From the NCBI RefSeq assembly GCF_011397635.1, contig NC_064756.1:16943817-17007816 (forward strand): DNA of 64,000 nt. Direction: 5' to 3'. The notes under the pieces were generated by a model, which ran no database searches, had not been told where the DNA came from, and saw nothing but the letters and a program-made list of their open reading frames with translations. How positions within the stretch are numbered: the first letter of the stretch is position 1; each line of letters opens with the position of its first letter. The DNA comes from Epinephelus fuscoguttatus (Eukaryota > Chordata > Actinopteri > Perciformes > Serranidae). Both the position numbers and the translations under genes were made by a program. Positions 1-58,964 of the stretch are shown in pieces.

Positions 1-660
1 TTTTGCATTCACTGTTCATTGCACTTGTACTCACTTTCTAATAACTGACTGATTTGCTTTCTGTGAAATATTTACTCATATGTTACTCAACTGAATGTAT
101 CAATAATCAGTGTATAATCAGAATCAAGAAACACATAATCATTGTTAATCATGTTTTGTTGTTACCCTAGTTAGGAGCTAAAAATGATGGTGTATGCCTT
201 CACCATCTGTGCTCAAGTTGGTGTGTTTGCACTCAGGTGATGTCATGATGTTCTGAGTTTAAGAGACAATGGTGGCAGAAGTAGAGCGTAGTGATCTGAG
301 GGCTCTGCCAACAAGGCCTACAATGGGAGGGGAATGTGAACAGCATGAAAGTGAATGCAATATTGAAACAACTGAGTCTGCTCCAGGGTCCAGCTCAGTG
401 TGTGCGTGTGTGTGTGTGTGTGTAACTCACAGTTAATCTATTTCACTTTGAACTCTGATGGACTGCATTTTATTTACTGGTAAAGTGTGGGTAAAGATCT
501 AACGAAACAAGCCTGAAGAAGGATTTTTATTCCACATTTCTTTCCCTGTAAAACCAATATTGTGATTTATGTAATGCAAGTTCCTATTTAATATCATTTA
601 TTCAATAAAAATAAACATGTTTCATCTCACTTCCTTCTCTTCTTGTTTATTAATATCCTG
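1..660 (+). pseudogene. 3' end of a plus-strand Ig-PAN-lectin family gene copy (copy D)
   Basis: This stretch matches, on the plus strand, the 3' non-coding end of genes A, B and C, which lie on the minus strand at 20890-21544, 45640-46250 and 55022-55670. It includes the shared GT microsatellite near 400-422 and an AATAAA signal. The coding exons would lie left of the window, so nothing can be said about whether the gene is intact. In this family the stop codon lies upstream of this region, so I read it as 3' UTR. Short open frames running through the GT repeat are not conserved and I do not treat them as coding. Confidence 0.6.
604..609 (+). terminator. Poly(A) signal AATAAA of copy D
   Basis: AATAAA lies at the position equivalent to the signals of copies A, B, C and E, about 180 bases beyond the microsatellite in the shared 3' UTR. 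Confidence 0.5.
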
Positions 661-881
661 TCTCTATTTTGAAGCCAGTTGCATGCATGCCTAGTACAAT
701 GATATCAATCTGTTGGTTTGATTTCACTGAAATACACTCTAAAGATCAACATTATCCTCTCATAACATCATTGCAGTCATTACATTTTGTGTATTTAGCC
801 TAAATTTAACCAATACTTTCATCAGAAATCATTTCATGTCGACACAGCTCCAGAGACCCACCATCATTAACCCTAGGTGAG

Positions 882-4750: not shown

Positions 4751-4892
4751 CACTTCACAGGTGTGCCTTATCAGGGTTAATTAGTGGAATTTCTTGCTTT
4801 ATCAATGGGGTTGGGACCATCAGTTGTGTTGTGCAGAAGTCAGGTTAATACACAGCCGACAGCCCTATTGGACAACTGTTAAAATTTATATT

Positions 4893-11259: not shown

Positions 11260-14200
11260 ACTGCCCTGCCGTCATCAGCTCGTCAGCTGTGTAGCAACAC
11301 CACCACCTGCAGGAGGTTACTGGTACATAACCCCAGGCACTGTGATAACAACAATAATAAAGCCAGAGCAAAGACTGTGATACATTGCATCTCCATTATT
11401 GCACAGAAAAGAAGATCAGTTAAAAAAGAGACTATTACAAAAAAAATTAGAAAAGAAGAAAATAAGGTTGATAAGCAAATAAATTAGTAAAAAAGTAAAA
11501 TAAAAAGAAGAGGACAAAAGAGACAAGAAAATAACTTTCAAGAAAATAATAAAATGACTGAAGAAGGAGCTACAGCGGGCCTTTCTGAGCCTGACCGAGC
11601 CCCATCATGGTTGCAAGCTTTGTTGGATCACCAAAATCAAAGCCTGCAAATGATGCTGGCTCCAGTCCTCACACACATAACTGGAGGAAATTCAGCTGCA
11701 CAGCAAGCCTTACCACCACCTGCTGTTTCCAGTGGAGATAGGGGTGAGATCTTACGGCGGCCCTCACAGGACAGGCATGATGCAGCACCTTTAGCCTCTT
11801 GGGAGATACCAGTAAGACCAAGAGATCGCACTGGTGGGTCCTTTGCAGCTGAGTTGGAAGTCATCAACAGGCAGGCACACAGCCCTGGCCTCACCAGGAG
11901 GAGTGCCAATCCTGAACCTGACGTCAGATGGAGAGATAACAGAGAGACTGAGCGTGAAACCTCGCGTTTGGTGTCCTACCATGACGAGCAGAGGCTAAAT
12001 AGCACAGTCAACAACAGTCAGCTGGCCATGCAGGAGGTGCATAGACCTAAACTTGCCATATTTGACGGAAATGATGACTGGGACTCTTTCTTGCTGCCAT
12101 TTGAGCGCCAAGCCAGGAAGCATGGATGGACTGCTGCAGAAAGAGTGGACAGGCTGCATGAGTGTTTGAGAGGAGCAGCAATATGATATGTCTGCTCACT
12201 GCCAGAACGTACCAGGGAGGATTATGTTCTCTTGGTGGAGCAGCTCACTCAGTGTTTTGGTAGAAAAGACCCTCCTACCACAGTAAGGAGAAAGCTGGGG
12301 GAACTCAGACAAGGGAAAGAGACATCTGCTGAATTTGCAGAAGAGGTGCAGCACCTTATTACCCTTGCATACCCAGGCGTGGATCTCCAGCTGCAAGACC
12401 AACTGGCAACTGATGCTTTCCTAAAGGGTCTAAGAAACCAAAAGGTGGTCTATGAAGTTATGAACAGAGATCCACGCTCCCTTGCAGAGGCTCAACAGCG
12501 TGTAGAGGCCCACGAACATAATTTCAGAGCCACCATGGGGGGTGAAACTGAAATAAAGAACAGAGCCAGGCATGTTTCTTGGGCCAGCGATGGGGACACC
12601 TGTGATGATGTCACTGCTACTGCTCGGAGGGTGCAGACCCCACAGTATGTGACTACAGATCAGTTCACTGCACTGACAGACCAAGTCAAGACCCTTGTTC
12701 ATACAGTAGAGAAGCTACAGCTGCAGTTTGAACACTTTCAGTCCACCCATATGGAACACCAGCAGACTAGAGCAACAACACAACCTCCCTGCGGGCTGGA
12801 GAGGAAGCAGAGCCATCCTCAAATGCAGCCCAGCCGAATGCGCTCCCAGTCACCAAGCCCAACCCGTGGAGCAGTTGGCCCGTGTTTCAAATGTGGAGAA
12901 TCAGGACATTTCAGGAGGGACTGCATGAGGTCACCAAGTCCGATAAATGTACGCGACCATAGTGACAAAGACCTAGGCCAACAGTTGCACTCGGGAGTAA
13001 CACTAAATCGAGATAAACAACCACAAGGACTACAGATTGGCTGCACCAAAAATAAGGGCGAGAGTCTGCAGATTCCTGTGACTGTGAACGACATCCCTAC
13101 ACAGGCCGTGGTGGACACTGGGGCTCAGACCACTGTCATCTCTGAGGAGCTGTATCAGAGTCTCTCAGGGATCAGCCCGAACAACCTACCTGAGACGTAC
13201 CTTCTCAATGCAGGAGTAGGAGATGGCATGAAGGCAAAATGCGGGCCGAAGGTCACCTTTAAAATTGCATCCAAATTGATCGACTGGGATGTACATGTGG
13301 CCCCCATACGTGACTCTGTTCTCCTAGGATATGATCTGATGAAGGCTCATGATGTTGTCGTCTACGCCCGTGGTAAAGTTTTTATTGGTGACGAACTTGT
13401 GCCCTCCAAGGTGGTAACAGATGGAACAGACTATTGTGTCGCCAGAGTGACCCTGGGAGAGACCACCACCATACCACCTACATCTGAGTGCGTGGAGTGG
13501 GGTGAGGTGGAGAACCCAAGGATAGGTGTTCCAGCTGTACTAGAGCCCTTGACCATCACAGAAGCTGTAGCCTCTGGAAGTGTTGCCGTCACTATGGAGA
13601 AGCGGGTGCCAGTCAGGCTATGCAACTTCTCTACCAGAAAAGCAGCGCTGCCAAAAGGAGCATGTCTTGGGCTCTTAGTTGAAGCTTATCCTGAGGAGCC
13701 ATCATACTCACCTGAGCAGAGTGCAGGGTTCTGCGTAGAGAAAGAGTCAGAGAGTGCGCCATCACTGAGGGTAGGAAGAGTAGCAACCATTTCTGATCTT
13801 CCTGACCATCTCCGAGGGTTGGTTGGTGCTACTAGTGAGGTGCTCACTGAGGAGCAGCACCAGCGTTTTCTCCAGCTGCTGCTAACTTACCAATCTCTCT
13901 TTGCAAAGAGTGACTCTGAGCTGGGCTACATGTCTGCCATCACGCATAAGATTGACACAGGATCGGCCAAGCCTGTGCGCCAGCCAATGAGAAGGACACC
14001 CCTTGGTTTCCAAGGTGAAGAGGAAAAGCATCTTCAGGCCATGCTCAAAGCAGGTGTTATCACCCCATCTACATCAGCGTGGGCCGCTCCAGTTGTTTTA
14101 GTGCGCAAAAAGGATGGAGGAGTACGGTGGTGTGTGGACTACTGCTGCTTAAACAGCCTGACAGCCAAGGATGCATATCCCTTGCCTAAGATTGAGGAGT

Positions 14201-17200
14201 GTCTTGATGTTCTTGGAGGAGCAACTATGTTTTCGACACTCGACCTTCACAGACCTCGCACAGGTCTTCAGCTGTCTCTATAACTACGGGTTGAAGTTGA
14301 AACCCTCAAAGTGTCACTTGCTTCAAGAGGAAGTCCTCTTCTTGGGCCACATTGTGGGCAGCAACGGGATCCGTCCAAACCCAGCTCTGGTCAGGGATGT
14401 ACAGCTCTGGAAGCCCCCTAGCAATGTGCAGGAGCTGCAGGTTTTCCTCGGGCTGTGTAATTACTACCGCAAGTTTGTCCAAGCATTTGCAGAACTGGCA
14501 AGCCCACTCCACTACCTTCTAAAGAAGGGTGCCACATTCCTGTGGACAGATGAGCACCAGGATGCTTTTACTCAGCTAAAGGAAAAACTAACAACTGCAC
14601 CGGTGCTAGGATACCCCACTGTTGGAGGCAAGTACATTCTTGACACTGATGCCTCATGCCACAGTATTGGGGCTGTCTTGTCGCAACTGCAGTGGGGGGA
14701 AGAGTGGGTTCTCACGTATGCTAGCAGCCACCTTACACCAGCTCAGCAGAGGTACTGTGTCACCAGACGTGAGTTGCTTGCTGTCGTGCGCTTCACCCGG
14801 CAGTTCCGCCATTACCTTCTGGGCAGGAAATTCTTGCTGAGAACAGATCATGGCAGCCTCACCTGGCTTTTTCAGTTCAAGTGCCCAGAAGGTCAATTGG
14901 CTCGCTGGTTGGAAGAGTTGAGCCAATACGACTTCAACATTGAGCATCGAGCAGGCCGCCAACACTCAAATGCTGATGCCATGTCTAGGCGAACCACAGA
15001 ACCTTTAAATGAATGTGACTGCTACCAAGCTGGAAAAAACTTGTCTGACCTGCCATGCCAAGGATGCAAGTATTGCCAGAGACTTCATGAGCAGTGGGCA
15101 AGGTTTGAAGATGACGTGGATGATGTGCTGCCGCTAGCAGTGAGGTGTATCCAGACTGGGGGTGAGACAAGTGTTAACATTCGGCCGAGGGAGACAGGTC
15201 AGTCACCTGCACCTGTGCTGGAGACTCCAGTAGTTAACTGGCTGCAGTCAATCAGCTCAGAAGAGCTAGCCAAACTCCAGAAAGCTGACCCTGTCCTCTC
15301 CACTCTCCACATGTGGAAAGAGTCTGGGACACTTCCTACTAAAGATCAGGTGGCACTGGAGAGTCCTGCAGTGAGGAAATTCTGGCTCTGCTGGCCCCAG
15401 GTCTTACTGCGGCAAGGAGTTCTCTACTATTCTTGGGAGAGAGTAGGAGCCCAACGCCCAGCTCTGCTGCTACTAGTCCCAGCGTCCATGCAACAAGAGG
15501 TTCTGCAAGCTTGCCACGATCCTCCTCACTCTGGTCATCTGGGAGAGGCAAAGACCCTCGACCGCCTACGTCAGAGCTACCACTGGTATGGAATGGGTGA
15601 GGATATCCGCCTGTTCTTAAAGAGATGTCAGCACTGCAATACATGCAAAGCGAAAGGACCAGTCAAACGAGCCAAGCTACAAAGTTATCAAGCTGGAGCA
15701 CCTCTGGACTGTCTCCATCTGGATATCCTTGGCCCATTCCCGATATCCAGCAGCGGGAACAAGTACATTCTTATCATCATTGACCTGTTCACCAGATGGG
15801 TTGAAGCCTTCCCTGTTCCAGATCAAGGGGCAGAAACGGCAGCCAGAAGGCTCGTGTACGACTTTATTGCCTGGTTTGGAGCCCCCCTCGAGTTACACAC
15901 CGACCAGGGTCGCAATTTTGAGAGCTCCTTGTTTCAGAGTGTATGCAAGCTCCTGCAGATTACAAAGACAAGGACCACCCCTTACCATCCTGCCTCCAAC
16001 GGACAGGTGGAGAGGTTCAACAGAACCTTGCTGCAGATGATTCGGTGCTATGTGGACCAGAACCAAAAGAACTGGGACGAGCATCTGCCACTACTCACCT
16101 CAGCCTATCACAGCTCACGGCACGCAGTCACTGGGTTCACACCTAACAGGCTGATGTTCGGAAGGGAGGTTCATCAACCACAGGATATCCAGTGCGGGAC
16201 AGCAGAGCTAAAATCTGACCGGATGGAGACAGCAGATTTTCTCTATAACCTGGAAGAAGGACTCAAAGAAACACAAGACACAGCGAGAGAGCATCTCCGC
16301 ATGGCACAAGAACGTCAAAAGAAGACGTATAATGTTCGAGCAAGAGAGCATTCCTACAATGTTGGAGATTTGGTTTATGTAAAGGACGACACCAAAAAGA
16401 AGGGACAAAGCCCCAAGCTTCAAGCACCTTGGACGGGCCCCCTAATTGTCTCTGCATGCCGGAGTCCTGTCCTCTACGAGATCCGGGGGAGAAAACGCAG
16501 TAAGATAATGCATCATGATCGGCTTAAGCCATACAACAGTGACGTGGTCCCTGTGTGGGTCCAGCGCCTAAGGAGCCAAGTGCTGCAGCTGTGCCAAGAC
16601 CCAGCTATACAGCCACCTGTAGTGGATGCCTCGTTGGTGCCAGAGCTGCCACTACGAGAACATACTGCTAAAGATCCAGCAGAGGATGAGGCATCTCTGA
16701 AGTCAAGTGATCTAGGGGAGACCCCTCAGCATGGAGCTCCAAAGTGTCGGCAGGAGAAAGGGCAAGAAGTCAGAGATATTTCAGAAAATGCTGTGAGAAC
16801 TTCCAGTGGGCGAGTAGTTCATAAACCAGAGAGATACAGAAAGTAGTCATGAAGAGAGACTGTCAAGTTAATCTGTTGATTTATTAAGGCATAACTTAAA
16901 GTAGGGAGTTTACTGTAATTGTTTTGAGTTTCTAAGACAGTGATGTAAGCTAACAGTAATTTCAGTTTTCAGTTTTGTGGACATGTTTATTTGAGTCACC
17001 TGTACTGAAGGGACTCAGTACTCCTGGAGGGGGGTAGTGTAAGGTAGATCACAAACATTAAGTTTGACCCTCTGTTATCCTGTCATAAGATGTGTAATGT
17101 GTTGCTAAATATAGCATGTTGATTAGTTAGTGAGTCACGTGAGCGTGCATGAGAACGTAACGAGATTACCATGTTATCAGTTTTGTTGTTGGATGTTGAA

Positions 17201-21572: not shown

Positions 21573-21644
21573 TCAGCTCCAGAATACCATTTGTTGGCAT
21601 TTTGGACCTACAGGACACAAAGAGACAGAACATACAGGGAAAAC

Positions 21645-21686
<42 letters not shown>

Positions 21687-22585
21687 CTGCTCCAGTAATT
21701 TCTCCGGGTAAAACTATACAAGCAATGAAATACTGCTCACCTTCTTCTTTGTCTTCCTCATCTGAGGGTTGGGGAGGGGTCGGACCAGGAGGGACTGATG
21801 TTGGGTTCACTGGAGCTGTATCGACATGAATTGATTATTAATTAAAGTATTGATTAAATTATGGATGACTTAAAACCCTGAGGTCTGCACATACTACTGA
21901 TGCACACTAACACTGTAATTGTGTATATGGTATACTATGATATAGTAAGAACTACTTCATGTAATTTGATGCCATTGTTATTCTGACTTTTTGGGTGAAA
22001 TGTATCAACAGGAATGTGAATCACTTGGGGTTAAGTTTTTAAGTGCTACCTTAAATACTTAATAATAACAATAATAATAACAATATCAATATTATTATTA
22101 TTATTTTTATTGCTGTTGTTGTTTTTGTTATTATGAGTAGTAGTAGTCATCATTATTATCTGCTCCAATGATTGCTAAAGATAAAACTATATAATAAATG
22201 AAATACTGCTCACCTTCTTCTTCCTCATCTGAGGGTTGGGGAGGGGTCGGACCAGGAGGGACTGATGTTGGGTTCACTGGAGCTGTGTCGACATGAATTG
22301 ATTATTAATTAACGTATTGATTAAATTATGGATGACTTAAAACCCTGAGGTCTGCACATACTACTGATGCACACTAACACTGTAATTGTGTATATGGTAT
22401 ACTATGATATAGTAAGAACTACTTTATGTAATTTGATGCCATTGTTATTCTGACTTTTTGGGTGAAATGTATCAACAGGAATGTGAATTACTTGGGGTTA
22501 AATTTTTAATTGTTACATTAAATACTTAATAATAACAATAATAACAACAACAACAATAATGATAACAATATCAATATCAATATTA

Positions 22586-22617
<32 letters not shown>

Positions 22618-24920
22618 TGTTCCAATCATTGCTCTGGGTAAAACTATATAATCAGTGAAATACTGCTCACCTTCTTCTTCCTCATCTGAGGATTGGGGAG
22701 GGGTCGGACCAGGAGGGACTGATGTCGGGTTCACTGGAGCTGTATCGACATCGAATTGATTATTAAAGTATTGATTAAATTATGGATGACTTAAAACCCT
22801 GAGGTCTGCACATACTACTGATGTGCACTAACACTGTAATTGTGTATATGGTATACTATGATATAGTAAGAACTACTTTATGTAATTTGATGCCATTGTT
22901 ATTCTGACTTTTTGGGTGAAATGTATCAACAGGAATGTGAATCACTTGGGGTTAAAATTTTAAGTGCTACCTTAAATACTTAATAATAACAATAATAACA
23001 ACAACAATAATGATAACAATATTATTATTATTATTATTGCTGTTGTTGTTTTTGTTATTATGAGTAGTAGTAGTCATCATTATTATCTGCTCCAATGATT
23101 GCTAAAGATAAAACTATACAATCAATGAAATACTGCTCACCTTCTTCTTCCTCATCTGAGGGTTGGGGAGGGGTCGGACCAGGAGGGACTGATGTTGGGT
23201 TCACTGGAGCTGTATCGACATGATTATTGATTGAATTATTATGAAATTATTATTAATTACATTTTTGATTAAATTTACTTTGACTTTGAGCAGAAAATTT
23301 AGATATTTTATTGTTAATGTTGTTATTATCATTATTATTATTATTTTAAATGTTAGTCATAACAGAGTCATAATGAAGGATAAGATGCCTTTTAAGAGAC
23401 CGATTTCAAATGATATTTTGTTTTTCTTTTTTGTGGGTTTTAAGGAAAAATATGAGATTAATAAAGACTGAAAAGAATTGTAGTTTATAGTTGTTTGATC
23501 TGTCCAAAGCTGCACAACATTTAGGTATACAAGTGATTTTACAGACAGAAATCTGGATAATTTAGACCATTTTTGGTTGAGCGATACTTTTTTAGATTTA
23601 AGATATATGGTGTTAATTAGTTTCCAAGTCATAGAGAAGGACGTGGTGCCTTTTAAGGGTCAGATTTCATTATGTTTTGTCCATCGTTCTGTCATATTTC
23701 AAATGATATTTTGTTTTTCTTTTTGTGGCTTTTATGGAAATAAATATGGGACTAATAAATACTGAACAGCATTACAGTTTACAATTTAACTCACCACAGT
23801 CGTTCCCTGAGACAGCATATGAATGAAGTTGTATCAGCATGTCATCTCTTGATGTCATCAGGAAACATGCTGTATTGCTGTGGGGAAAAATGCAAAGCTG
23901 ATCACAAATCTGTGTTGAATCAGATGTCCCATCAGTTATGTGTTGCTACATAGTGTTTTTAAAGTAAATATTTTTCAAATGACAGAAATATGCTGGCTCA
24001 TTATGTTTTCTATGGCCACGAGTCCACACAACAGATATTTACGGTTTATAAAATGTGAAGTATTGGCAGGTGGGATCTTCAGTACAGAGTCTCCTGCAGT
24101 CAGCAACAGTCGTCACGTTGTGTTTGGGTTGACCTTTTGCAAACGTAATATAATGCGACTCTGAACAACCTGATAAATAAAAACATAGAAGAATCCAGAA
24201 AAATAGTTAGAGTCAGAGTGCAGACAGATTTCTTTAACTTCCTCATTATTCATTTCCTCTATGTGAATTTGTTAAATCCATGTCTCCTGCAAACATGCTA
24301 ATAAAGTGTTTTAAGTGCACACATCTTATTGGGCTTCATGCCAGGAATTAAGTTCAAGTAGTAAGTGACACTCTGACAGTCTGTCATGTGGGAGACCAAG
24401 TTCATTTCAACATGAAATGATTCCCTCAGCTGTGACAATATAAGTCATCCTGCTCCTCTGACATTAGCTTCATTTAAGGAAACTGGGTATTTCGACATTT
24501 GAAAAGCGTGTGAATTTAAAAACAGAGGAACTCTAAATAATGTTTTAATATGTTTGAGGAGATAACACAGCTTGTCAAATGATTAAAGTGCTTACCTACT
24601 GACACATAAAGATGCACACATTCAGTCTTTCTGGAATCATAGCAGAGGTTGATCTGATCATTCTCTCGCGTAAAGCTGGTAATGGTCAGGTCGCTGTCAG
24701 TCACTGTGACTCCGGGGAGGCTGGCATTATTGGGCTTACACCTGCCTGAAACACACTGACACTTGCTGCCTCCTCTGCCACAGTATTTAATGGTCCGATC
24801 TTTAGGAAATGGGAAAGTGGCACTGCTTCCCTCCAGCAGCCACACCTGTCTTTCTAAAACATATGTTGCTGCAACATGACACATACCCAGCAGCAGCAAG
24901 AGATGGATGAACTGTGCCAT
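21573..24920 (-). CDS. Gene A: secreted Ig-like/PAN-Apple protein with four stalk exons and no lectin domain
   Basis: Spliced model (minus): 24920-24596, 24169-24043, 23877-23795, 23209-23141, 22739-22671, 22282-22214, 21815-21741, 21607-21573. All introns are GT-AG, and the total is 852 bases, 283 residues, with no stop inside. Residues 1-19 are a signal peptide (MAQFIHLLLLLGMCHVAA). About 20-109 is an Ig-V-like domain with six Cys (start EGSSATFPFP, later LTITSFTREN), reminiscent of pIgR/CD300 V domains but lacking the usual first Cys. About 110-178 is a PAN/Apple domain (VADCRRLCTEDPTCQYF, then SGNDC). 179-272 are four stalk repeats (PVNPTSVPPGPTPPQPSDEE). The last exon adds a short tail. 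The start ATG follows an acceptor (24925) after a 5' non-coding exon. No transmembrane segment is seen. Function is unknown; secreted recognition or adhesion is an inference. Confidence 0.6.
21644..21690. repeat. (ATT)n microsatellite
   Basis: A pure trinucleotide run in the last coding intron of gene A. Similar ATT/CAT runs accompany each stalk-exon unit (about 22060-22160, 22560-22620, 23010-23070) and the gene B introns. Confidence 0.9.
21741..23230 (-). repeat. Tandem array of about 465-bp units, each carrying one stalk exon
   Basis: Four stalk exons (75, 69, 69 and 69 bases) recur every 457-473 bases, together with their flanking introns, the 170-bp intronic repeat and an ATT-rich run. 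Every exon is symmetrical phase 1-1, so copy number can change without breaking the reading frame. Confidence 0.85.
24043..24169 (-). other. Exon 3 of gene A, first part of the PAN/Apple domain
   Basis: 127 bases between TTTATCAG and GTAAAT splice signals. It encodes GCSES... through VADCRRLCTEDPTCQYF. Equivalent exons, also 127 bases, are 48547-48673 (gene B) and 57226-57352 (gene C). The second half of the domain is an 83-base exon: 23795-23877, 48299-48381 and 56978-57060. Confidence 0.7.
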
Positions 24921-27473: not shown

Positions 27474-28016
27474 TCAACAGCTTTCTGGTCCTCCTTCCTT
27501 CTCTTTCTCAGTGTCAAAGATCTCTTCCTCCTGGTGACGGGGCCTCCTCAGCTTCTTCTTCTTCTTCTTGAAGTAGGCATCTTTCAGATTTTTGGGGCTC
27601 TTCGTGCCAGAGATGTCAATTTTGGTGTTAGTGGCAATGCAGAACTTCTGGCGAGCCCTGCGCAGGGGTACTCTGGTCACGACAAGAGGTCCAGTGACGG
27701 GCAGGGGACCACTTGAGAGCTGCTTCAGGAACACCACGCGCTTTCCACGGTGGTGACCAGTAAACAGAATGAGGACAGTTTCTGGGGTGATGGAGCTGCG
27801 CAGCTTCCTCTTGTGCTGACTGAAAGGCTTCTTCCCCTGGCTCTTCAGCTTATGGGGAACATCCTCTGTGGGGTAGCAGCGAGGCATTTTGCGTAGCTTG
27901 ACAACACAAGAGCCTCCATTCTTGTCTCCTCCAACTGTCTTGACAACAGTTGCCTGGGGCTTTGCATTCAGCTTTTTCTCCACCTTGGTCTCAGCGGTCT
28001 TGGTGGCAATAGTCAC
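27474..28016 (-). pseudogene. rpl6: Ribosomal protein L6 retrocopy
   Basis: An intronless 180-codon frame matching the central and C-terminal parts of eukaryotic large-subunit protein eL6: [78 protein letters not shown] and [15 protein letters not shown]. The N-terminal basic region and the last residues of L6 are missing, and the frame ends in unrelated residues, so it is a 5'- and 3'-truncated processed pseudogene. Two more damaged copies lie in the palindrome arms (32902-33241 and 36823-37162). The copy is still open, which suggests a recent origin. Confidence 0.88.
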
Positions 28017-28082
28017 TCTGCATCCCTCAAACTAACTATTTACCATCCCCTGATTTTGTTTTGAAGCTGCCAATAACTACCA

Positions 28083-32801: not shown

Positions 32802-32901
32802 AGTGTAATGTATTGACAAAATTATATGAGAGTAAACAGGACGACATAAGATTGCAGATTACCAGAACAGCTGTATTACAGTAGAGCTGTTCATGCTGTT
32901 C

Positions 32902-33241
32902 ACGGCAAGAGGGCCAGTGATGAGCAAGGGACCACTTGAGAGCTGCTTCAGGAACACCACACGCTTTCCACGGTGGTGACCAGTAAACAGAATGAGGACA
33001 GTTTCTGGGGTCATGGAGCTGCGCAGCTTCCTCTTGTGCTGACTGAAAGGCTTCTTCCCGTGACTCTTCATCTTACAGGGAACATCCTCTGTGGGGTAGC
33101 AGCGAGGCATTTTGCGTAGCTTGATAACACAAGAGCCTCCATTCTTGTCTCCTCCAACTGTCTTGACAACAGTTGCCCGGGGCTTTGTATTCAGCTTTTT
33201 CTCCACCTTGGTCTCAGTGGTCTTGGTGGCAATAGTCACTC
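32902..33241 (-). pseudogene. rpl6: Truncated RPL6 retrocopy (left arm)
   Basis: Matches the first two thirds of the 27474-28016 retrocopy, from [13 protein letters not shown] to [16 protein letters not shown], then runs into X sequence. The C-terminal part of L6 has been removed at this junction. The same junction is present in the right arm. Confidence 0.85.
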
Positions 33242-33246
33242 CGCAT

Positions 33247-35769: not shown

Positions 35770-36822
35770 TTGATTTATTTGTGCAACAAATGGGATAAGA
35801 TCATTTCATTATCCTGTACGAATACAAGTACAAATCAAGTAAAAAATTCACTGTTATACTGTATAAAGTATAAACTAAAGCGTATGCAAAACAACTATAA
35901 TTCTGTGTTTGCTATGTAAAGGTGGAGGTGGTGTTGGTCCTGCTGATGCTTCAGAAGGGAGAGGCCAGTGCAGGGCAATTGGCAGAAGGTACAGAAAAAT
36001 ATCTACAGTAGGGCATGTCATTGGTGGTACATAACCGTGAGTTATTTGCCAGGCACTGGCAGTTGACATAAATGGCTCTCTCGTGTAGTTGTAATAATAG
36101 CCTTCTTGGCACTACAGCTTTATTCTATTAAGTGTAAGTGAATTTTGCTGTCTGTTGCCTTACTGTTATGTATCCCAGCCCAAACATGAAAGCTATTGTA
36201 TATTCCAACCTTGGAATTAGGTTGGGGTTCATTAGGGTTCCCTGGTATGATAATGTATGAAGGCTGAAAAAAGGAATATAGTGTATTGGCCATTGCCAAT
36301 ATACATAGAGAGTGTTAATTATTTACCTCTTTTACATGGTAATGACAATCTATTACATATTACTGGCAATATAAGCTGGCATCTAAATGGTTTGCTGACA
36401 AAATAACACAATCATGTTTTTCACTTGATCATAATATCATAGCATTATTTCAGGAGTCATGTTGTGACTGTTGTATTGAGGGGCACATTTTGGTGAGAAG
36501 TTTCAGGGGCATGTAGGGGAGAGAAAAGCACTGGACTGGACTGCTGGTGATTAGTTATATGGTGAATACCCATATGTGAAATGGAATAATACTGTGACTA
36601 TTGGATTCATACGGAGTGTCCCTGTGACACTGAAGTGAGTGTTGTAGTGACTGTTATGCCTATATTGGGATGCATATTTGTTTTGCCTCAGCCAACGTGT
36701 GCTACTGTGTGTGCGCATGTGCACGTGTGTGTGCGTATGAATGTGCGTGTGTGGGCTGGGTGGCCTGGTTAAATGTGTGACTCCCAGCCTGAAAAATTCT
36801 CCCAGTTCGGCCCTGATGCGGA

Positions 36823-37162
36823 GTGACTATTGCCACCAAGACCACTGAGACCAAGGTGGAGAAAAAGCTGAATGCAAAGCCCCGGGCAACTGTTGTCAAG
36901 ACAGTTGGAGGAGACAAGAATGGAGGCTCTTGTGTTGTCAAGCTACGCAAAATGCCTTGCTGCTACCCCACAGAGGATGTTCCCCGTAAGCTGAAGAGTC
37001 ACAGGAAGAAGCCTTTCAGTCAGCACAAGAGGAAGCTGCGCAGCTCCATGACCCCAGAAACTGTCCTCATTCTGCTTACTGGTCGCCACCGTGGAAAGCG
37101 TGTGGTGTTCCTGAAGCAGCTCTCAAGTGGTCCCCTGCTCGTCACTGGCCCTCTTGCCGTGA
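36823..37162 (+). pseudogene. rpl6: Truncated RPL6 retrocopy (right arm)
   Basis: Same truncated structure as 32902-33241, in inverted orientation, from [15 protein letters not shown] to GPLAVN, then X sequence. It differs at scattered residues (for example [16 protein letters not shown]), consistent with independent decay after duplication. Confidence 0.85.
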
Positions 37163-37264
37163 ACAGCATGAACAGCTCTGAATACAGCTGTTCTGGTAAT
37201 CTGCAATCTTATGTCGTCCTGTTTACTCTCATAATTTTGTCAATACATTACACTCAGTGCTTAA

Positions 37265-38476
37265 TTTGTAAAATTAGAAGTAGGGGAACACTTTGGGCCT
37301 CTGAGAGAGCAGTGTTTAAGCGGAACCCGAGCTGCCTCACTGCGCGACTCCGAATGGAATGATTGTGACATCTAGTGTTGTCACGGTACCAGAATTGGGA
37401 CCCACGGTACGATACCAGTGAAAGTATCATGGTTCTGAGTAGTATCAGGATACCACAGCAAAAATTAGGCAGATGTGCCTTTTGTCATTTATAAAAAGAT
37501 AAATCACTTTTCTATAATACATCAATGATATTTCAATGGAATAAATTATTTATTGACTTATTCATACTTCAAAAACAGTATCAATAAGTGATTAACATAG
37601 GGGGGATCAAAATGAAATAAATAAATGAAATAAAAATCATCCAGCCACCCTCCTCCCCTGACAAGTAAGAACAGTCCCTTCATAAGTAAAGAACAGTCCC
37701 TAAAGTGCGGTGAGGTTTGTGGACCGTTACCTGCCACAGAGAGAAATGTGAACGGCTCGTTTCTCCTCTGACACGCCACATACCTGTGTGCCGCCATGGC
37801 TCAGTTGTCCAGGTACTACTGGGCAGTCATGACACCAAGAAGGGGAAATTACTGGACCTGGAGTCGGACTCGCTGGTAAGCCGTTGTGTTGCGGCGCTGA
37901 ACACTATGAGCCTCCACCGTATTTGACTACCGTATCCTGTCTGTGAGCCCCGTTCAACCCACAACCGGCAGGATTTGATTTTCCTTTCTGCTGCTGGTTG
38001 AAATCTGTTCTCACACAGCGTGCTGAATGATTTAATTTGCGCGCATAAAACTATTTGTAGTTGCAAATGCAAGTAAAATGCTGGCACGTAGAGCTCTGTG
38101 GAAAACAAATCACTGCCGACAAGTAAAAATAAATAAATAATAACTTTCACTGCTCAAAGATACACACAAGTCTGGAAAACAAACCACTACAGCAGCATTT
38201 TGAGTGCCAGGTGGCCGGCGCACGCCGGGACGGCGCATGGACACTCACCGTCTTGCGATTGGACTTTGAACTATCATAGCTACTGTGGAGTTTTAGTACC
38301 GCGGTCTACCATTACCAGTATACCCTGCAACACCAGTGACATCAGCCAATACTGTATGTAGTTTTTAGATGCGAAAAGTTCTAGACCCATGCAAATTAGT
38401 TCCGGAACGCACGAGTACCTTTTCTGAAAAGATCCTGGTACGTGTTCCAGTACGTTCCGGCTCAAATTAAGCACTG
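37265..38476. mobile_element. hAT-type non-autonomous transposon (right arm copy)
   Basis: Inverted counterpart of 31772-32801 with the same ends and the same duplicated target, read here as ATTACACT (37257-37264 and 38477-38484). It is about 180 bp longer. The shared target shows that it was present before the palindrome formed. Confidence 0.88.
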
Positions 38477-40490: not shown

Positions 40491-40590
40491 NNNNNNNNNN
40501 NNNNNNNNNNNNNNNNNNNNNNNNNNNNNNNNNNNNNNNNNNNNNNNNNNNNNNNNNNNNNNNNNNNNNNNNNNNNNNNNNNNNNNNNNN
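40491..40590. other. Assembly gap of 100 N
   Basis: A run of exactly 100 N, the usual placeholder for a gap of unknown size. On its left is the X-to-gene spacer and on its right the 3' non-coding part of a plus-strand family gene, so a promoter and all coding exons of a further gene copy (E) would be expected in it. Confidence 0.95.
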
Positions 40591-41345
40591 ATGTCCTGTA
40601 GATCCATCATGACGACTGCATGGGGCTCTGGAAACTACAAGAGTCACTCCACTATTCTTCTTGATATTATGTTTGAATGAATATTGGTGTTGTGGACTAC
40701 TGATTTTTGCATTCACTGTTCATTGCACTTGTACTGACTTTCTAATAACTGACTGATTTGCTTTCTGTGGGAAATATTTACTCATATTTTACTCAACTGA
40801 ATGTATCAATAATCAGTGTATAATCAGAATCAAGAAACACATAATCATTGTTAATCATATTTTGTTGTTACCCTAGTTAGGAGCTAAAAATGATGGTGTA
40901 TGCCTTCACCATCTGTGCTCAAGTTGGTGTGTTTGCACTCGGGTGATGTCATGATGTTCTGAGTTTAAGAGACAATGGTGGCAGAGGTAGAGTGTAGTGA
41001 TCGGAGGGCTCTGCCAACAAGGCCTGCAATGGGAGGGGAATGTGAACAGCATGAAAGTGAATGTAATATTGAAACAACTGAGTCTGCTCCAGGGTCCAGC
41101 TCAGAGTGTGTGTGTGTGTATGTGTGTGTGTGTGTGTGTGTGTGATCTTTAAAGACTAACAGTTAATCTATTTCACTTTGAACTCTGATGGACTGCATTT
41201 TATTTACTGGTAAAGTGTGGGTAAAGATCTAATGAAACAAGCCTGAAGAAGCATTTTTATTCCACATTTCTTTCCCTGTAAAACCAATATTGTGATTTAT
41301 TTAATGCAGGTTCCTATATAATATCATTTATTTAATAAAGATAAA
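40591..41345 (+). pseudogene. 3' end of a plus-strand Ig-PAN-lectin family gene (copy E)
   Basis: Begins at the last-exon acceptor sequence (ATGTCCTGTAG) and follows the 3' UTR of genes B and C through the GT repeat to an AATAAA at 41334-41339. The coding part is hidden by the gap, so copy E could be whole. It may be described as a pseudogene only because no coding sequence is visible. Confidence 0.55.
41334..41339 (+). terminator. Poly(A) signal of copy E
   Basis: AATAAA at the conserved 3' UTR position. Confidence 0.5.
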
Positions 41346-41369
41346 CATGTATTATCTAACCTGTTTCTC

Positions 41370-43345
41370 CTCTTATTTTGGTTTATACATATAGCAATAA
41401 GCAAGAAATGAATTGAGAAAATGGAGGAACAAGTCCACTGGGAGGCGACGTTAAAGGAACAGTGTAGGATTCATAGGATTTAGTGGCATCTAGTGGTGAG
41501 GAGTGCAGATTGTAACCAGCTGAAGGAGAGATACCCCAGGTGAAAACAGCTTTTCATGTACTGGCCAGTTTTGAGATTTTGGCCTTTTTTGCTTCTTTTT
41601 TCAGACTAGTGGAAAGAAAACATAACAATTACACATTTAGGTTCCATTCCCTTTTGCCTCTCTTCCTGCCTCTCTTCCTCCAGCTCCTCCATCTCCTCCA
41701 GTCTCTCTACTATTTGTCATCTGACAAAAAATATATTGATGCAAGACATGTGAACAGTGGGACAATTTGAGATGCAACAGTCATAGATTTCGATTGTTGT
41801 AGCCTGAGGAAAACATACTGTATGTTTTACAATTGTGTAATTCATTAAACACCATCTGAATGTATATAGGCTAAAGAACAGCCATAATGTCAACACAAGT
41901 TAGTCACCTTCATCATGTTAGACATAAATAAAATAAATCAACAAAAATGTAAATGCTCCAATACCATTATAATACAGCTGTGTGCAAAATGTTGCACTTA
42001 CACCCAATATCTATTACATAAATATGACTCAGTGTTCTGACTGGGTGTTTTTACTGGGAGCAGTGGATCTCTGTTCTCCTCTCTCCTTCACACACCATGG
42101 ATGCTGAAGATTGTCACTGAAGGAGCTATTATTTATAGTGTTTGCACTTTATTTTTTCAGACTGTTTATATCATGTCATCTGACTACGAACACTAATTTG
42201 AACTGTGTCATCACTACATGACATCTATGATTGCTGATGGAACATGTGAAGTGGAATTTCATGTTCTCTGGCATATAGGCTAATATTGATCTCATAGTTG
42301 CCAAACTTAGCTCAGCTAGTATTAGCTCGTTAGCATCTCATTATCTAGCAAAGAGTTGCCAAGGAACGCCATTCAGTTAGCCTAACATCAACAGGTGTTT
42401 GTTTAGCTTATTTACTGAACCAACCGACTCACCGTTCACACTCGGCGCTCCGCTGTGGAGCGCTAACGGTGATGCGCGTGTATGTCGTTCCCTCACGAGC
42501 TGCCGTGAGCTGTACAGTGACGCGCACCCACAAAGTCAGTGGAGAGAGTGGCGCTGGGGAGGACCAGTCACACGTTACCAAAATAACAGTAGAGCCAATC
42601 GATGAGCAATACGAGGTTAGAGGTGGGACATATGGTAGACACCAACGATTGTTAACCCTTTGTGAACCATATTGAGCGACGACAGCCAGTGTTTATATTG
42701 GTAGGGACAATACAGAAGGGGCTGAATATTGGTAGGGACATGTCCCTACCGTCCCTACCCAATCCTACGCCTATGGCTTTATTATTAACACATGCACATG
42801 ACACAACAGCTAGCTTCTCTCATTCCAATTCAAACAGAGGACAGTGGTACTGACCACCTGTAGCTAGAAAAACGTCAGCTAACTCCTACCTGACAACATG
42901 AACAGTGACCTACGATTAAATGCAGCAAAAATGAGGACTGGTAATGATAATAATGTGTTGGTACTGAGTGGTAGAAGTTAAGAAATGTGCCACATATCCT
43001 GGTTTAAGCCAGATACTTACACCACTACTGCACACCACCCATTCTGGAAGGGAGCGCATTGCTCTGTGCAGATAGAGCGCTCAGAGCCCGAGTCGGGGAA
43101 AGGTGGGAGGGATGGGGTGGATCAAACCATTTTTGAGGCAAGGGGGGTGCTGCTGTATTTTTGTTGTTAAAATATTACGTTGCAACCAAGTACTGTATGG
43201 TTTTGACACTTTTCTAGGTTAAAAGGGACATACAGTAAACACAAAATAAACTAAAACAAAATCTCTCAAATTTTAGGGGTGCTGGGATTCAATTTAGGGG
43301 TGCTCCAGCACCCCCAAAAATGGGCTAGATATGCCGATGGTCTGG
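41370..43345. mobile_element. DNA-transposon relics, hAT-like, no gene recognised
   Basis: A TTAAAGGAACAGTGTAGGAT start near 41450 resembles common fish non-autonomous element ends. GGTAGGGACATGTCCCTACC sequence near 42730 and a right end GGGCTAGATATGCCGATGG at 43320-43340 resemble hAT termini. The interior has only short frames (42399-42605, 42985-43170) with no recognisable domain. Individual boundaries are uncertain. Confidence 0.35.
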
Positions 43346-46472: not shown

Positions 46473-47785
46473 TTATGGCGAGGCCTTTCCATTCAGATCT
46501 GAAAATGAAAAGAAAGATCAACTTTGTCAACAATCTCATGTCAGAATGGGGGAAAAACCAAACAGCAGCTTACCTTGGCAGATGAAAGGCAGCTCTTTAT
46601 GGCAGTCTTCGTCCCGCCACTTGAATTCTTGTGACCCTTCCACCTGGATGACCTTTCCACAGTGGTTGTTTAAGGGGTCGACAAAAGCGCTACTGCTCCA
46701 ATGATGTTCCTTTACTCTTTCCCCTGAAATCCACTGCCAGGGGACGTTTACACCAAAGATGGAGCGCTCCAGGCCGATCCACACTCCACCATCCAAGCCG
46801 CTCTTCTTTTGTAGGACAGAGTTCACTGCGTCCTGCACTGTCTGGTTGGTGATTTGAACCAGGGTGGACTTCTCATTGTGGCAGTGCTGCAGGGCATCAA
46901 TCCAGCTTTTGTGTTCCGGGTAGAACCGGAGACCTGCATCAAAGAGGTGACACTGAGAGTTTGTGCATGTCGCAACCAGGGGTGCTGCCGGAGATTTTAG
47001 ACCCCATGAAAGAATATAATACTGGGCCCCCACAGATCATCCTTATAGGCTCCACTGTTGTAACAAACCACACCTGCAAAACCCATTTGAGGACCTGAAA
47101 TATTAATAACAAATGTATGTTTGCAGGCTGGAGTCTCTGCTGTAGTCCCATGGTAATCACCTCACATGTAGTCTACTGGCATTGAGCATTGGTGTGTAAC
47201 ATGATTCATGATTAAATGAACTGAGAATAAAGATGCATCACTGATATTGTTACCAACAAAAGCTGCACTATCATAAGTGGCCATAGGATGGCAGTCTTTA
47301 TTTAGCAGTGCCTTTCCATGTACCTGGTGTAAAACTGCTAACAGTAAAATCAAATCTCCAGTGAGAGGGAGACCTGTCTATCATTGTTGTTATTATTATT
47401 ATTATTATTATTAAAAAAAAACTAAAACTATAGCTACCATCCATGAAATACTGCTCACCTTCTTCTTCCTCTTCTTCTTCCTCTTCCTCTTCTTCTTCGT
47501 CTTCCTCATCTGAGGGTTGGGGAGTGGTCGGACCAGGAGGGAGTGATGTTGGGTTCACTGGAGCTGTATCGACATGAATTGATTAAGGTAGTGATTACAT
47601 TTTGGATGACTTAAAACCCTGAGGTCTGCACATACTACTGATGCACACTAACACTGTAATTGTGTATATGGTATACTATGATAGGGAAAAGGGAAATCTC
47701 ACTTGGGGTTAGAATTTACAGTGCAACCTTAAATACATCATCATCATCATTATTATTATTATTATTATTATTATCATTATTATTG

Positions 47786-47816
<31 letters not shown>

Positions 47817-49374
47817 CATTATCATCATTAGTAGTAGTAGTATTGGGAAAAACTATAGCTACTATAAGTGAAATACTGCTCACCTTCTTCTTCCTCATCT
47901 GAGGGTTGGGGAGGGACTGATGTTGGGTTCACTGGAGCTGTATCGACATGAATTGATTAAGATAGTGATTACATTTTGGATGACTTAAAACCCTGAGGTC
48001 TCCACATACTACTGATGCACACTAACACTGTAATTGTGTATATGGTATACTATGATAGGGAAAAGGGAAATCTCACTTGGGGTTAGAATTTAAAGTGCTA
48101 CCTTAAATACATTATTATTATTAGTAGTAGTAGTAGTATTGGGAAAAACTATAGCTACTATAAGTGAAATACTTCTTACTTTGAAATAATATTTTGTTTT
48201 TCTTTTTGTGTTTTTTAAGGAAAAATTTTACTTTGGATGTGCGTGCTCTACCCTACTAATAAATACTGAACAGCATTCCAGTTTATAGTTTAACTCACCA
48301 CAGTCGTTCCCTGAGACAGCATATGAATGAAGTTGTATCAGCATGTCATCTCTTGATGTCATCAGGAAACATGTTGTATTGCTGTGGGGAAAAATGTAAA
48401 GCTGATCACAAATCTGTGTTGAATCAGATGTCCCATCAGTTATGTGCTGCTACGCAGTGTTTTTAAAGTAAATATTTATCAAATGACAGAAATATGCTGG
48501 CTCATTATGTTTTCTATGGCCACGAGTCCACACAACAGATATTTACGGTTTATAAAATGTGAAGTATTGGCAGGTGGGATCTTCAGTACAGAGTCTCCTG
48601 CAGTCAGCAACAGTCGTCACCTTGTGTTTGGTGTCACCTTTTGCAAACATAATATGATGCGACTCTGAACAACCTGATAAATAAAAACATAGAAGAATCC
48701 AGAAAAATAGTTAGAGTCAGAGTGCAGACAGATTTCTTTAACTTCCTCATTATTCATTTCCTCTATGTGAATTTGTTAAATCCATGTCTCCTGCAAACAT
48801 GCTAATAAAGTGTTTGAAGTGCACACATCTTGTTGGGCTTCATGCCAGGAATTAAGTTCAAGTAGTAAGTGACACTCTGACAGCTGTGACAATATAAGTC
48901 ATCCTGCTCCTCTGACATTAGCTTCATTTAAGGAAACTGGATATTTGGACATTTGAAAAGCATGTGAATTTAAAAACAGAGGAACTCTAAATAATGTTTT
49001 AATATGTTTGAGGAGATAACACAGCTTGTCAAATGATTAAAGTGCTTACCTACTGACACATAAAGATGCACACATTCAGTCTTTCTGGTATCATAGCAGA
49101 GGTTGATCTGATCATTCTCTCGCGTAAAGTTGGTAATGGTCAGGTCGCTGTCAGTCACTGTGACTCCAGGGAGGCTGGCATTATTGGACTTACACCTGCC
49201 TGAAACACATTCACACTTGATGCCTCCTCTGCCACAGTATGTAATGGTCCGAAGTGAAGGAAATGGGAAAGTGGCACTGCTTCCCTCCAGCAGCCACACC
49301 TGCCTTTCATAAACATATGTTGCTGCAACATGACACATACCCAGCAGCAGCAAGAAATGGATGAACTGTGCCAT
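46473..49374 (-). CDS. Gene B: secreted Ig-like/PAN-Apple/C-type lectin protein, apparently intact
   Basis: Spliced model (minus): 49374-49050, 48673-48547, 48381-48299, 47937-47884, 47563-47459, 46933-46574, 46498-46473. All introns are GT-AG; the total is 1080 bases, 359 residues, with no internal stop. Signal peptide 1-19; Ig-V-like domain about 20-109 with six Cys; PAN/Apple about 110-178 (VADCRRLCTEDPTCQYF, SGNDC); stalk about 179-231 with a long Glu run; C-type lectin domain about 232-351 (FYPEHKSWIDALQHC, GVWIGLERS, WQWISGE, NHCGKV, WRDEDC, LPFICQ) with the four canonical Cys. The calcium-site EPN/QPD and WND motifs are not seen (WRD instead), so classical sugar binding is doubtful. 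It ends DLNGKASP with no membrane anchor. Two further 3' exons are non-coding. The combination of domains is unfamiliar to me. Confidence 0.7.
46574..46933 (-). other. C-type lectin domain exon of gene B
   Basis: A single 360-base phase 1-1 exon between TTTGATGCAG and GTAAGC. It encodes a whole short-form C-type lectin domain. Its counterpart in gene C (55984-56340) is damaged and in gene A it is absent. Confidence 0.75.
47459..47563 (-). other. Stalk exon of gene B with an expanded Glu tract
   Basis: 105 bases instead of 69, still phase 1-1. The extra codons are an imperfect GAA/GAG run encoding a continuous stretch of more than ten Glu. This is microsatellite growth within coding sequence. 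The other gene B stalk exon (47884-47937) is shortened to 54 bases. Confidence 0.7.
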
Positions 49375-55272: not shown

Positions 55273-56785
55273 AGCTGGACCCTGGAGCAGACTCAGTTGT
55301 TTCAATATTACATTCACTTTCATGCTGTTCACATTCCCCTCCCATTGTAGGCCTTGTTGGCAGAGCCCTCCGATCACTACGCTCTACTTCTGCCACCATT
55401 GTCTCTTAAACTCAGAACATCATGACATCACCTGAGTGCAAACACATCAACTTGAGCACAGATGGTGAAGGCATACACCATCATTTTTAGCTCCTAACTA
55501 GGGTAACAACAAAACATGATTAACAATGATTATGTGTTTCTTGATTCTGATTATACACTGATTATTGATACATTCAGTTGAGTAAAATATGAGTAAATAT
55601 TTCCCACAGAAAGCAAATCAGTCAGTTATTAGAAAGTCAGTACAAGTGCAATGAACAGTCAATGCAAAAATCAGTAGCCCACAACACCAATATTGATTCA
55701 AACATAATATCAAGAAGAATAGTGGAGTGACTCTTGTAGTTTCCAGAGCCCCATGCAGTCGTCATGATGGATCTACAGGACATGAACGAGACAGAACATA
55801 CAGTGAGAAGAACATTTCTGCTGTCAACCTGGAAAACATAACAGTTTTCAGCTGATATACCTTGGTCTCGAGAAGTGAAGTGATTATGGCGAGGCCTTTC
55901 CATTCAGATCTGAAAATGAAAAGAAAGATCAACTTTGTCAACAATCTCATGTCAGAATGGGGGAAAACCAAACAGCAGCTTACCTTGGCAGATGAAAGGC
56001 AGCTCTTTATGGCAGTCTTCGTCCAGTCACTTGAATTCTTGTGACCCTTCCACCTGGATGACCTTTCCACAGTGGTTGTTTAAGGGTCAAAAAGCGCTAC
56101 TGCTCCAATGAGGTTCCTTTACTCTTTCCCCTGAAATCCACTGCCAGGGGACGTTTACACCAAAGATGGAGCGCTCCAGGCCGATCCACACTCCACCATC
56201 CAAGCCACTCTTATTTTGTAGGACAGAGTTCACTGCGTCCTGCACTGTCTGGTTGGTGATTTGGACCAGGGTGGACTTCTCGTTTTGGCAGTGCTGCAGG
56301 GCATCAATCCAGCTTTTGTGTTCCGGGTAGAACCGGAGACCTGCATCAAAGAGGTGACACTGAGAGTTTGTGCATGTCGCAACCAGGGGTGCTGCCAGAG
56401 ATTTTAGACCCCATGAAAGAATATAATACTGGGCCCCCACAGATCATCCTTATAGGCTACATTGTTGTAACAAACCACACCTGCAAAACCCATTTGAGGA
56501 CCTGAAATATTAATAATAAATGTATGTTTGCAGACTGGAGTCTCTGCTGTAGTCCCATGGTAATCACCTCACATGTAGTCTACTGGCATTGAGCATTGGT
56601 GTGTAACATGATTCATGATTAAATGAACTGAGAATAAAGATGCATCACTGATATTATTACCAACAAAAGCTGCACTATCATAAGTGGCCATAGGATGGCA
56701 GTCTTTATTTAGCAGTGCCTTTCCATGTACCTGGTGTAAAACTGCTAACAGTAAAATCAAATCTCCAGTGAGATGGAGACCTGTC

Positions 56786-56827
<42 letters not shown>

Positions 56828-57225
56828 CATTAGTAGTAGTATTGGGAAAATCTATAGCTACTGTAAGTGAAATACTTCTCACATTGAAATGATATTTTGG
56901 TTTTTTTTGTGGTTTTTAAGGAAAAATTGTGGGATGAATAAAGACTGAACAGAATTCCAGTTTATAGTTTAACTCACCACAGTTGTTCCCTGAGACAGCA
57001 TATGAATGAAGTTGTATCAACATGTCATCTCTTGATGTCATCAGGAAACAGTTTTTATTGCTTTGGGGAAAAATGTAAAGCTGATCACAAATCTGTGTTG
57101 AATCAGATGTCCCATCAGTTATGTGCTGCTACATAGTGTTTTTAAAGTAAATATTTATCAAATGACAGAAATATGCTGGCTCATTATGTTTCCTATGGCC
57201 ACGAGTCCACACAACAGATATTTAC

Positions 57226-57352
57226 TCTGTATAAAATGTGAAGTATTGGCAGGTGGGATCTTCAGTACAGAGTCTCCTGCAGTCAGCAACAGTCGTCACC
57301 TTGTGTTTGGTGTCACCTTTTGCAAACGTAATACCACCTGACTCTGAACAAC
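57226..57352 (-). other. Exon 3 of gene C, first part of the PAN/Apple domain
   Basis: 127 bases encoding GCSESGGITFAKGDTKHK and VADCRRLCTEDPTC, open and with conserved splice sites. Confidence 0.65.
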
Positions 57353-57971: not shown

Positions 57972-58964
57972 AATGATTCCCTCAGCTGTGACAATATAAG
58001 TCATCCTGCTCCTCTGACATTAGCTTCATTTACGGAAACTGGGTATTTGGACATTTGAAAAGCATGTGAATTTAAAAACAGAGGAACTCTAAATAATGTT
58101 TTAATATGTTTGAGGAGATAACACAGCTGTTATCTGTGAATGTTTAAAGTGCTTACCTATTGACACATTCAGATGCACACACAGACCTGGTTGCCTGGAT
58201 GGAGAGGAATCATAGCAGAGGTTGATCTCGTCATTCTCTCGCATAAAGTTGGTAATGGTGAGGGCTCTGTCAGTCACTGTGACTCCGGGGAGGCTGGCAT
58301 TATTGGACTTACACCTGCCTGAAACACATTCACACTTGCTGCCTCCTCTGCCACAGTATTTAATGGTCCGATCTTTAGGAAATGGGAAAGTGGCACTGCT
58401 TCCCTCCAGCAGCCACACCTGTCTTTCTAAAACATATGTTGCTGCAACATGACACATACCCAGCAGCAGCAAGAGATGGATGAACTGTGCCATGGCTTCT
58501 GAAACCAAAGAAAAAAGTTTACAGATTAAGGAGAGAAGTGCACAGCACACCATGGATCCAGATTTAGCTCATCTATTCATGGGAATATAATTTGCATATT
58601 TCAACTTGCAGCAACATTAGTTGGGAACGTAATATGCAATATGTTGAAGTAAAAATATTTAAGAGTCTTGATTTTTCTTGATTTCTAATGTGACAAACAT
58701 GCACCTAATGTGTAATAACACACTAATTAATCTATAATTTCCATGCACAACTTTTCTACATCAAAATAAAAATATCTAAGTCTAAATATATCTACTTGTA
58801 TTAAGTCGTTCTACATGATGAAACACCAAAATGACAGTATCCATCTGATGTTAATGCTGTATGAATTCATCAAAAACTTACCCAATAAATGAAGACTTGT
58901 GGCTCTGTAAAATGTGTTAGGAGGGTGGGTAGGGAAATGTGAACTGAGTCTTCACTGTGCATCA

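Follow-up and report, generated by a model that had tools for sequence, protein, structure and literature searches.

Among vertebrates, the lecticans (aggrecan, versican) offer one point of comparison with the locus described here: they are secreted, begin with an immunoglobulin (Ig) domain, and carry a C-type lectin domain (CTLD) near the end with a stalk between. They differ from it by lacking a PAN domain and by containing Link, EGF and Sushi domains, and they are not known to form a cluster of near-identical copies. In the snail Biomphalaria glabrata, some plasma proteins of the VIgL family (FREPs, CREPs) bind products of parasite larvae (PMC5433772), and the family member FREP1 is composed of Ig, PAN/Apple and fibrinogen domains (PMC7588048). 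In crayfish, PcLec3 combines an Ig-like domain with a CTLD and is reported to bind bacteria and to promote phagocytosis (PMC4944128). The Apple domain itself is found in the kalliklectins. Teleosts have no plasma kallikrein; their nearest proteins are skin-mucus lectins with four Apple domains, for which the interaction between Apple domain and glycan could serve immunity (PMC3835742). A catfish kalliklectin has eight Apple domains (PMC10499198).

Here, we analyse a stretch of 64,000 nucleotides of Epinephelus fuscoguttatus (the window, C5:16943817-17007816, where C5 is contig NC_064756.1) within the searched genome of 1.05 Gb and 26 contigs. Gene models, domain searches and whole-genome searches agree on a multi-copy family of leader-bearing PAN and C-type lectin proteins, as a first-pass annotation of this DNA had proposed. 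At the level of architecture, kinship aside, the fish family would resemble snail FREP1/VIgL and crayfish PcLec3. It would share with VIgL an Ig-like region, a lectin-type domain and the organisation as a variable multi-gene family, and with FREP1 also the PAN/Apple domain (PMC7588048, PMC5433772). In contrast to the fish proteins, the snail FREPs are mollusc proteins that end in a fibrinogen domain, PAN is not mentioned in the cited text on the CREPs, which carry a C-type lectin, and the abstract on the arthropod PcLec3 mentions an Ig-like domain and a CTLD, neither PAN nor stalk. Measured against the combination of Ig and lectin-type domain that marks VIgL proteins, the fish CTLD is confirmed, whereas the fish Ig-like region has no Ig-profile match. 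The array genes belong to the same Apple family as the kalliklectins, but they contain a single Apple domain plus other regions, compared to four Apple domains in the skin-mucus lectins (PMC3835742) or eight in catfish, with neither Ig nor CTLD. The modules and the general plan are already known. Among the literature matches listed, with their titles and abstract openings, we found no description of the Ig-like/PAN/CTLD combination, of clustered module exchange or of the exon-1 diversity island reported below, and these are new within that set.

Gene B model and domain content

Gene B is encoded on the minus strand at window 49374-46473 by seven exons of 325, 127, 83, 54, 105, 360 and 26 nt (Table 1). 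All exons are flanked by GT/AG splice sites, and the model yields the predicted product of 359 residues that the first-pass annotation had assembled. The model has six introns, where seven junctions had been counted. The statement that all introns are in phase 1 holds for five of them; the sixth, located within the PAN domain, is in phase 2. An AATAAA is found at window 45659, 813 nt past the stop.

The domain content agrees with the earlier assignment for four of its five elements. The leader is hydrophobic as judged by eye, in line with the claimed signal peptide. Pfam detects PAN_1 (PF00024) at residues 115-164 (2.2e-7, 31 bits, cut-off 21.4), with the six expected cysteines at positions 110, 133, 137, 143, 155 and 178, and Lectin_C (PF00059) at residues 239-351 (1.2e-13, 52.2 bits, cut-off 22.6). 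The stalk is rich in proline and acidic residues, with D or E at 22 of its 53 positions. Among the best 60 of 72 matches to PDB sequences, those to the CTLD are led by the yolk sac IgY receptor (2.2e-15), along with mannose receptor 2, and those to the PAN domain by plasma kallikrein (3e-4). The fifth element, an Ig-V-like domain, is discussed separately below.

Table 1. Positions of family features in the window.
Feature	Window position	Strand	Basis
Gene B exon 1: leader and Ig-like variable region, 108 codons plus 1 base	49050..49374	-	gene model
Gene B exon 2: PAN/Apple, first part	48547..48673	-	gene model, PAN_1 match
Gene B exon 3: PAN/Apple, second part, after phase-2 intron	48299..48381	-	gene model
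Gene B exon 4: first Pro/acidic repeat of the stalk	47884..47937	-	gene model
Gene B exon 5: second Pro/acidic repeat of the stalk	47459..47563	-	gene model
Gene B exon 6: whole CTLD on a single exon	46574..46933	-	gene model, Lectin_C match
Gene B exon 7: last coding exon, DLNGKASP and stop	46473..46498	-	gene model
Gene A exon 1: leader, Ig-like	24596..24920	-	
Gene A PAN exon, part one	24043..24169	-	
Gene A PAN exon, part two	23795..23877	-	
Gene A stalk, first of four exons	23141..23209	-	
Gene A stalk, second of four exons	22671..22739	-	
Gene A stalk, third of four exons	22214..22282	-	
Gene A stalk, last of four exons	21741..21815	-	
Gene A proposed terminal exon, GPKCQQMVFWS and stop, replacing the CTLD	21573..21607	-	conserved acceptor and reading frame
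Gene C exon 1: leader, Ig-like	58157..58493	-	
Gene C PAN exon, part one	57226..57352	-	
Gene C PAN exon, part two	56978..57060	-	
Gene C CTLD exon, broken by two in-frame TGA	55984..56340	-	
Gene C terminal exon	55884..55909	-	
3' end of another copy	1..680	+	
3' end of another copy, directly after the 100-N gap	40591..41378	+	

Extent of the array

The genome search with exon 1 returned 11 full copies, plus a single leader fragment, and every one of them is located at C5:16.822-17.002 Mb. Two further matches elsewhere, with E of about 0.6, were taken as chance (18 candidates, all scored). PAN exons were found in the same 11 genes, together with four distant Apple matches on C17, and the search with the PAN_1 family added one match on C22. 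There are six close copies of the CTLD, all within the array. The remaining 31 CTLD matches (E <=0.001) are at most 34% identical to the array CTLD, and Lectin_C is frequent across the genome, with at least 149 matches from the 150 of 558 candidates that were scored.

The array therefore holds 11 genes with Ig-like and PAN exons in about 180 kb, six on the plus strand (g1, g2, g3, g5, g6, g8) and five on the minus strand (g4, g7, A, B, C). The copies are clustered as had been noted, with 'tandem' being a loose term for this arrangement, and the presence of genes on both strands indicates that inversions took part. The copy count is a lower bound, with two partial copies adjoining runs of N. 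These are the two copies that had been recognised from their 3' ends, and both are present (Table 1). A run of 5,000 N at C5:16938817-16943816 abuts the left edge of the window beside one of them, and a 100-base gap at window 40491-40590 lies beside the other. A family leader fragment 5 kb to the left of the first of these 3' ends, beyond the N run, may represent the 5' end of the same copy. An open frame of 1733 residues with a family leader at C5:16938742 was discarded, since it is in fact the run of 5,000 N.

A block of 274 bp is found at 12 places on C5, including window 47098-47371, with 98-100% identity and a length of 108 bp in one copy. It is located in the intron before the CTLD in the lectin genes and beyond the 3' end in g1, g2, g5 and A. 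We rejected a dispersed transposon as its explanation, as all 12 occurrences lie within the array. Long open frames within the array at window 2632-10245 (-), 11491-16846 (+) and 4785-5939 (+) resemble retroelement and Tc1-like transposase genes by eye. A repeated open frame with VTIATKT is present in three copies, at window 27474-28031 (-), 32859-33245 (-) and 36817-37362 (+). On its left flank, the array is bordered by a fish-specific NACHT-associated (NLR-type) exon (FISNA, 6.1e-10, C5:16811982-16812389) and by a coiled-coil gene which we take to be NUMA1; on its right flank, Pfam detects an M28 peptidase exon (2.9e-6) in a gene which we take to be FOLH1/NAALAD2. Three of the five flank peptides scanned gave no Pfam match. 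Two scans of viral contigs revealed no relative; the first gave no match at all, and the second gave five stretches with a short pattern, none of them a relative.

Gene architectures and module exchange

The boundaries of exon 1 and of the first PAN exon agree in all 11 genes, and the donor of the second PAN exon is shifted 9-12 nt downstream in g2, g4, g5 and g7. Beyond these exons, the architectures diverge. Genes g3, g6 and g8 are intact with Ig-PAN-CTLD and no stalk, an architecture that is also found in the broken gene C. Genes g2, g4, g5, g7 and A contain Ig-PAN-stalk, with two or four stalk repeats and no CTLD. In g1, the 3' structure is that of the stalk genes, with a damaged stalk exon and loss of the stalk acceptor. 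Stalk and CTLD occur together in gene B only, among the 11 genes with full exon 1. A sixth CTLD, at C5:16819180-16819539, has neither Ig nor PAN. The exon order seen by the first-pass annotation recurs in the paralogues, but the full order, which it had taken as a family trait, is realised in a single gene, and we have abandoned Ig-PAN-stalk-CTLD as the family plan. Similarly, the three copies described as coding, A, B and C, do contain Ig-like and PAN exons; A has no CTLD, however, and that of C is broken.

Models for eight of the 11 genes read to the expected end (g2, g3, g5, g6, g7, g8, A and B), those for g2, g5 and g7 with the second PAN exon cut 12 nt short in the model, so that their modelled lengths are 4 residues below the true value. 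The other three are damaged: the g1 model stops prematurely, the frame of g4 is shifted by a stalk exon of 86 nt, and C has two TGA in the CTLD exon. In all six stalk genes, the last stalk region leads to the identical point of the 3' region. There, DNA for the tail GPKCQQMVFWS, a proposed terminal exon, follows an acceptor in five of the six, while g1 reads GPNCQ. The tail is in frame in g2, g5, g7 and A, and the frame of g4 is shifted upstream of it.

These architectures could reflect two different products, with an ordinary gene consisting of Ig-PAN-stalk and closed by a short terminal exon of its own, a CTLD that is an alternative 3' end or has been recombined in, and gene B as a meaningless recombinant. 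Stalk exons or their remnant without CTLD in six of 11 genes, CTLD without stalk in three genes and gene C, the common junction to the 3' region, the encoded tail and the one CTLD exon standing alone are all in line with this reading. Yet, the CTLD exon, which begins in phase 1, lacks a separate leader, and five of the six CTLD exons follow a PAN exon in the same orientation and in matching phase. We consider separate products unlikely. The nearest relative of gene B changes exon by exon: it is A for exon 1, g4 for the first PAN exon, g3, g6 and A for the second PAN exon, and the orphan CTLD and g6 for the CTLD. This fits a recombinant origin of gene B.

Origin of the PAN domain and properties of the CTLD

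Elsewhere in the genome, a cluster of Apple-domain exons is located at C17:32107781-32131753, which possibly represents teleost apple-domain lectin genes. In one of its Apple repeats, as judged by eye, the first exon begins in phase 1, the inner intron interrupts the domain in phase 2 immediately ahead of the fifth cysteine, and the second exon ends in phase 1. Both the resulting 1-2-1 pattern and the place of the inner intron are the same as in gene B. The match in intron phases, together with the skin-mucus lectins being the nearest teleost proteins, suggests that the PAN cassette of the array came from a teleost apple-domain lectin gene.

The four canonical cysteines of the CTLD are invariant in all five intact aligned copies, with gene C left out. 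Calcium-dependent sugar binding by CTLDs is associated with the motifs EPN or QPD and WND. By eye, neither EPN nor QPD is present in the five intact aligned copies, and WND is replaced by WRD in gene B and by WLD in the four others. The absence of EPN/QPD renders classical sugar binding doubtful.

The Ig-like region

The assignment of exon 1 as an Ig-V-like domain finds no support in the Pfam and PDB searches. With matches up to E 10 considered, Pfam shows no Ig family for any of the 11 copies of exon 1, and one weak match, to Adeno_E3_CR1 (0.063), occurs in one of the 11 members. The PDB profile search matched no Ig chain. When the exon-1 profile is compared with 16 V-set domains taken from this genome, a weak match over 25 columns is obtained with P 0.059, compared to P 0.3 for the CTLD control.

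The canonical core of V-set domains is Cys-Trp-Cys. By eye, the core tryptophan is absent in all 11 copies, and phenylalanine is found at the position expected for the first core cysteine. Six cysteines outside the leader are invariant in all 11 copies, the region has about the length of a V domain, and inspection by eye reveals a late-strand motif ending in cysteine and, near the end, a motif reminiscent of the V-domain E-F region. A divergent Ig domain could still be present without the Cys-Trp-Cys core. We use 'Ig-like' for exon 1 in a limited sense, which refers to the cysteines, the late motif and the length.

Diversity is concentrated in exon 1

In the alignment of all 11 genes, nucleotide diversity pi amounts to 0.113 in the Ig-like part of exon 1, compared to 0.007 in the leader, 0.020 in the 230 bp upstream, 0.013 in intron 1 and 0.017 in intron 2. 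The two PAN exons show 0.044 and 0.070. (Gene C was excluded from one intron table, leaving 10 of 11 genes, and from the CTLD codon counts below, leaving five of six copies.) Variable sites make up 84 of 271 positions in the Ig-like part versus 49 of 771 in the upstream region, intron 1 and intron 2 together, for which the Fisher test gives 1.9e-22, a nominal value because the sites are linked. The variable region of exon 1 is far more divergent than the DNA surrounding it, as expected of recognition molecules, and the recognition role proposed for the family gains weight because diversity concentrates there. The first 100 bp of intron 3 have a diversity of 0.142, at least equal to exon 1, which counts against a purely coding explanation at that point; stalk and CTLD genes part near the start of this intron. 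The CTLD is weakly an island, with a pi of 0.036 in the exon versus 0.031, 0.016 and 0.017 in three flanks (five copies).

The variation within exon 1 is patchy, with peaks at nt 40-69, 100-129, 160-189 and 280-309 of gene B and nearly none at nt 70-99. Exon-1 lengths in the 11 copies are 325, 328, 334 and 337 nt. All differences are multiples of 3, and the resulting in-frame changes are confined to two loop-like places within the variable patches. The exon-1 proteins of the 10 other copies are 79-91% identical to that of gene B. Between g3 and g6, 33 of 274 sites differ in the Ig-like part, compared to 0 of 54 in the leader and 6 of 425 in intron 1, and the exon-1 proteins of g4 and g7 are identical save residues 20-22. 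Exon 1 is a mosaic: the 38 two-state informative sites form 703 pairs, of which 202 violate the four-gamete test. Agreement between neighbouring informative sites exceeds the permuted level at all three ranges tested, with 0 of 2000 permutations at 15 bp and likewise at 30 bp, and with p 0.006 at 60 bp. This points to an exchange of segments between copies.

Reproduction, too, typically involves secreted multi-copy genes that diverge fast, and the family could serve reproduction or the recognition of conspecifics, through egg coat, sperm or mucus signals, and not defence. No sequence feature favours such a role, and the known fish Apple lectins are described from skin mucus (PMC3835742) and, in the title of a listed reference, from fugu serum. 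We regard it as quite improbable.

Selection and decay

The ratio dN/dS is 0.88 for the Ig-like part, 1.13 or 1.03 for PAN with 68 or 69 codons, respectively, and 1.85 for the five intact CTLDs. None of the three regions differs significantly from 1, as 0 lies within each confidence interval of dN-dS. In the Ig-like part, diversity is equal across the three codon positions (0.114, 0.107 and 0.118). With dN/dS not above 1 and codon positions alike, we rejected simple positive selection in exon 1. A segment whose diversity is kept while the introns are homogenised would be a better fit than fast amino-acid change.

Values of dN/dS near 1 and three damaged genes out of 11 would also be in line with a decaying array, in which the exons drift and the introns are alike merely from recent duplication. 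However, drift would not raise the diversity of the Ig-like part of exon 1 to about eightfold that of the adjoining intron. In addition, exon 1 is free of stops in all 11 copies, where about 4.4 would be expected from 118 random substitutions (P 0.011), and all differences in its length preserve the reading frame. Such a lack of stops speaks against complete decay, and we consider the decay of the array very unlikely.

Proposed function of the family

The explanation that we prefer, and to which we give about an even chance, is a clustered family of small, probably secreted recognition proteins whose diversity would arise in the germline through duplication and the exchange of segments. The three of 11 genes that look broken or truncated count against it. 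In such proteins, the leader would be followed by a compact Ig-like region with loop-like patches that differ from copy to copy and may confer an own specificity to each copy. Next would come a single Apple domain of the teleost apple-domain lectin kind. The C-terminal part would be formed by a CTLD, by a Pro/acidic stalk with a short cysteine-containing tail or, as in gene B, by both. Apple domain and CTLD may recognise glycan or protein partners on microbes, parasites or mucus and contribute avidity, with the stalk providing spacing of the heads. The germline repertoire would be made through duplication, inversion and exchange of exon segments among copies, the latter allowing introns to stay alike and the Ig-like exon to stay diverse.

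We propose only tentatively, as a possibility on the doubtful side, that the family could be the vertebrate germline counterpart of the snail Ig-lectin repertoire. It would then consist of an Ig-like cassette invisible to Pfam with CDR-like patches that are kept diverse, of leader and introns homogenised by gene conversion, and of interchangeable Apple, stalk and CTLD modules, and would supply a family of soluble receptors independent of antibodies and T-cell receptors.

The diverse exon 1 next to near-uniform introns represents a directly testable case of diversity that is maintained alongside sequence exchange. If expressed, the array would be a jawed-vertebrate family that has arrived at the same solution as the FREPs of snails, in which Apple and lectin modules carry a variable Ig-like head, and such a family would coexist with a complete adaptive immune system.
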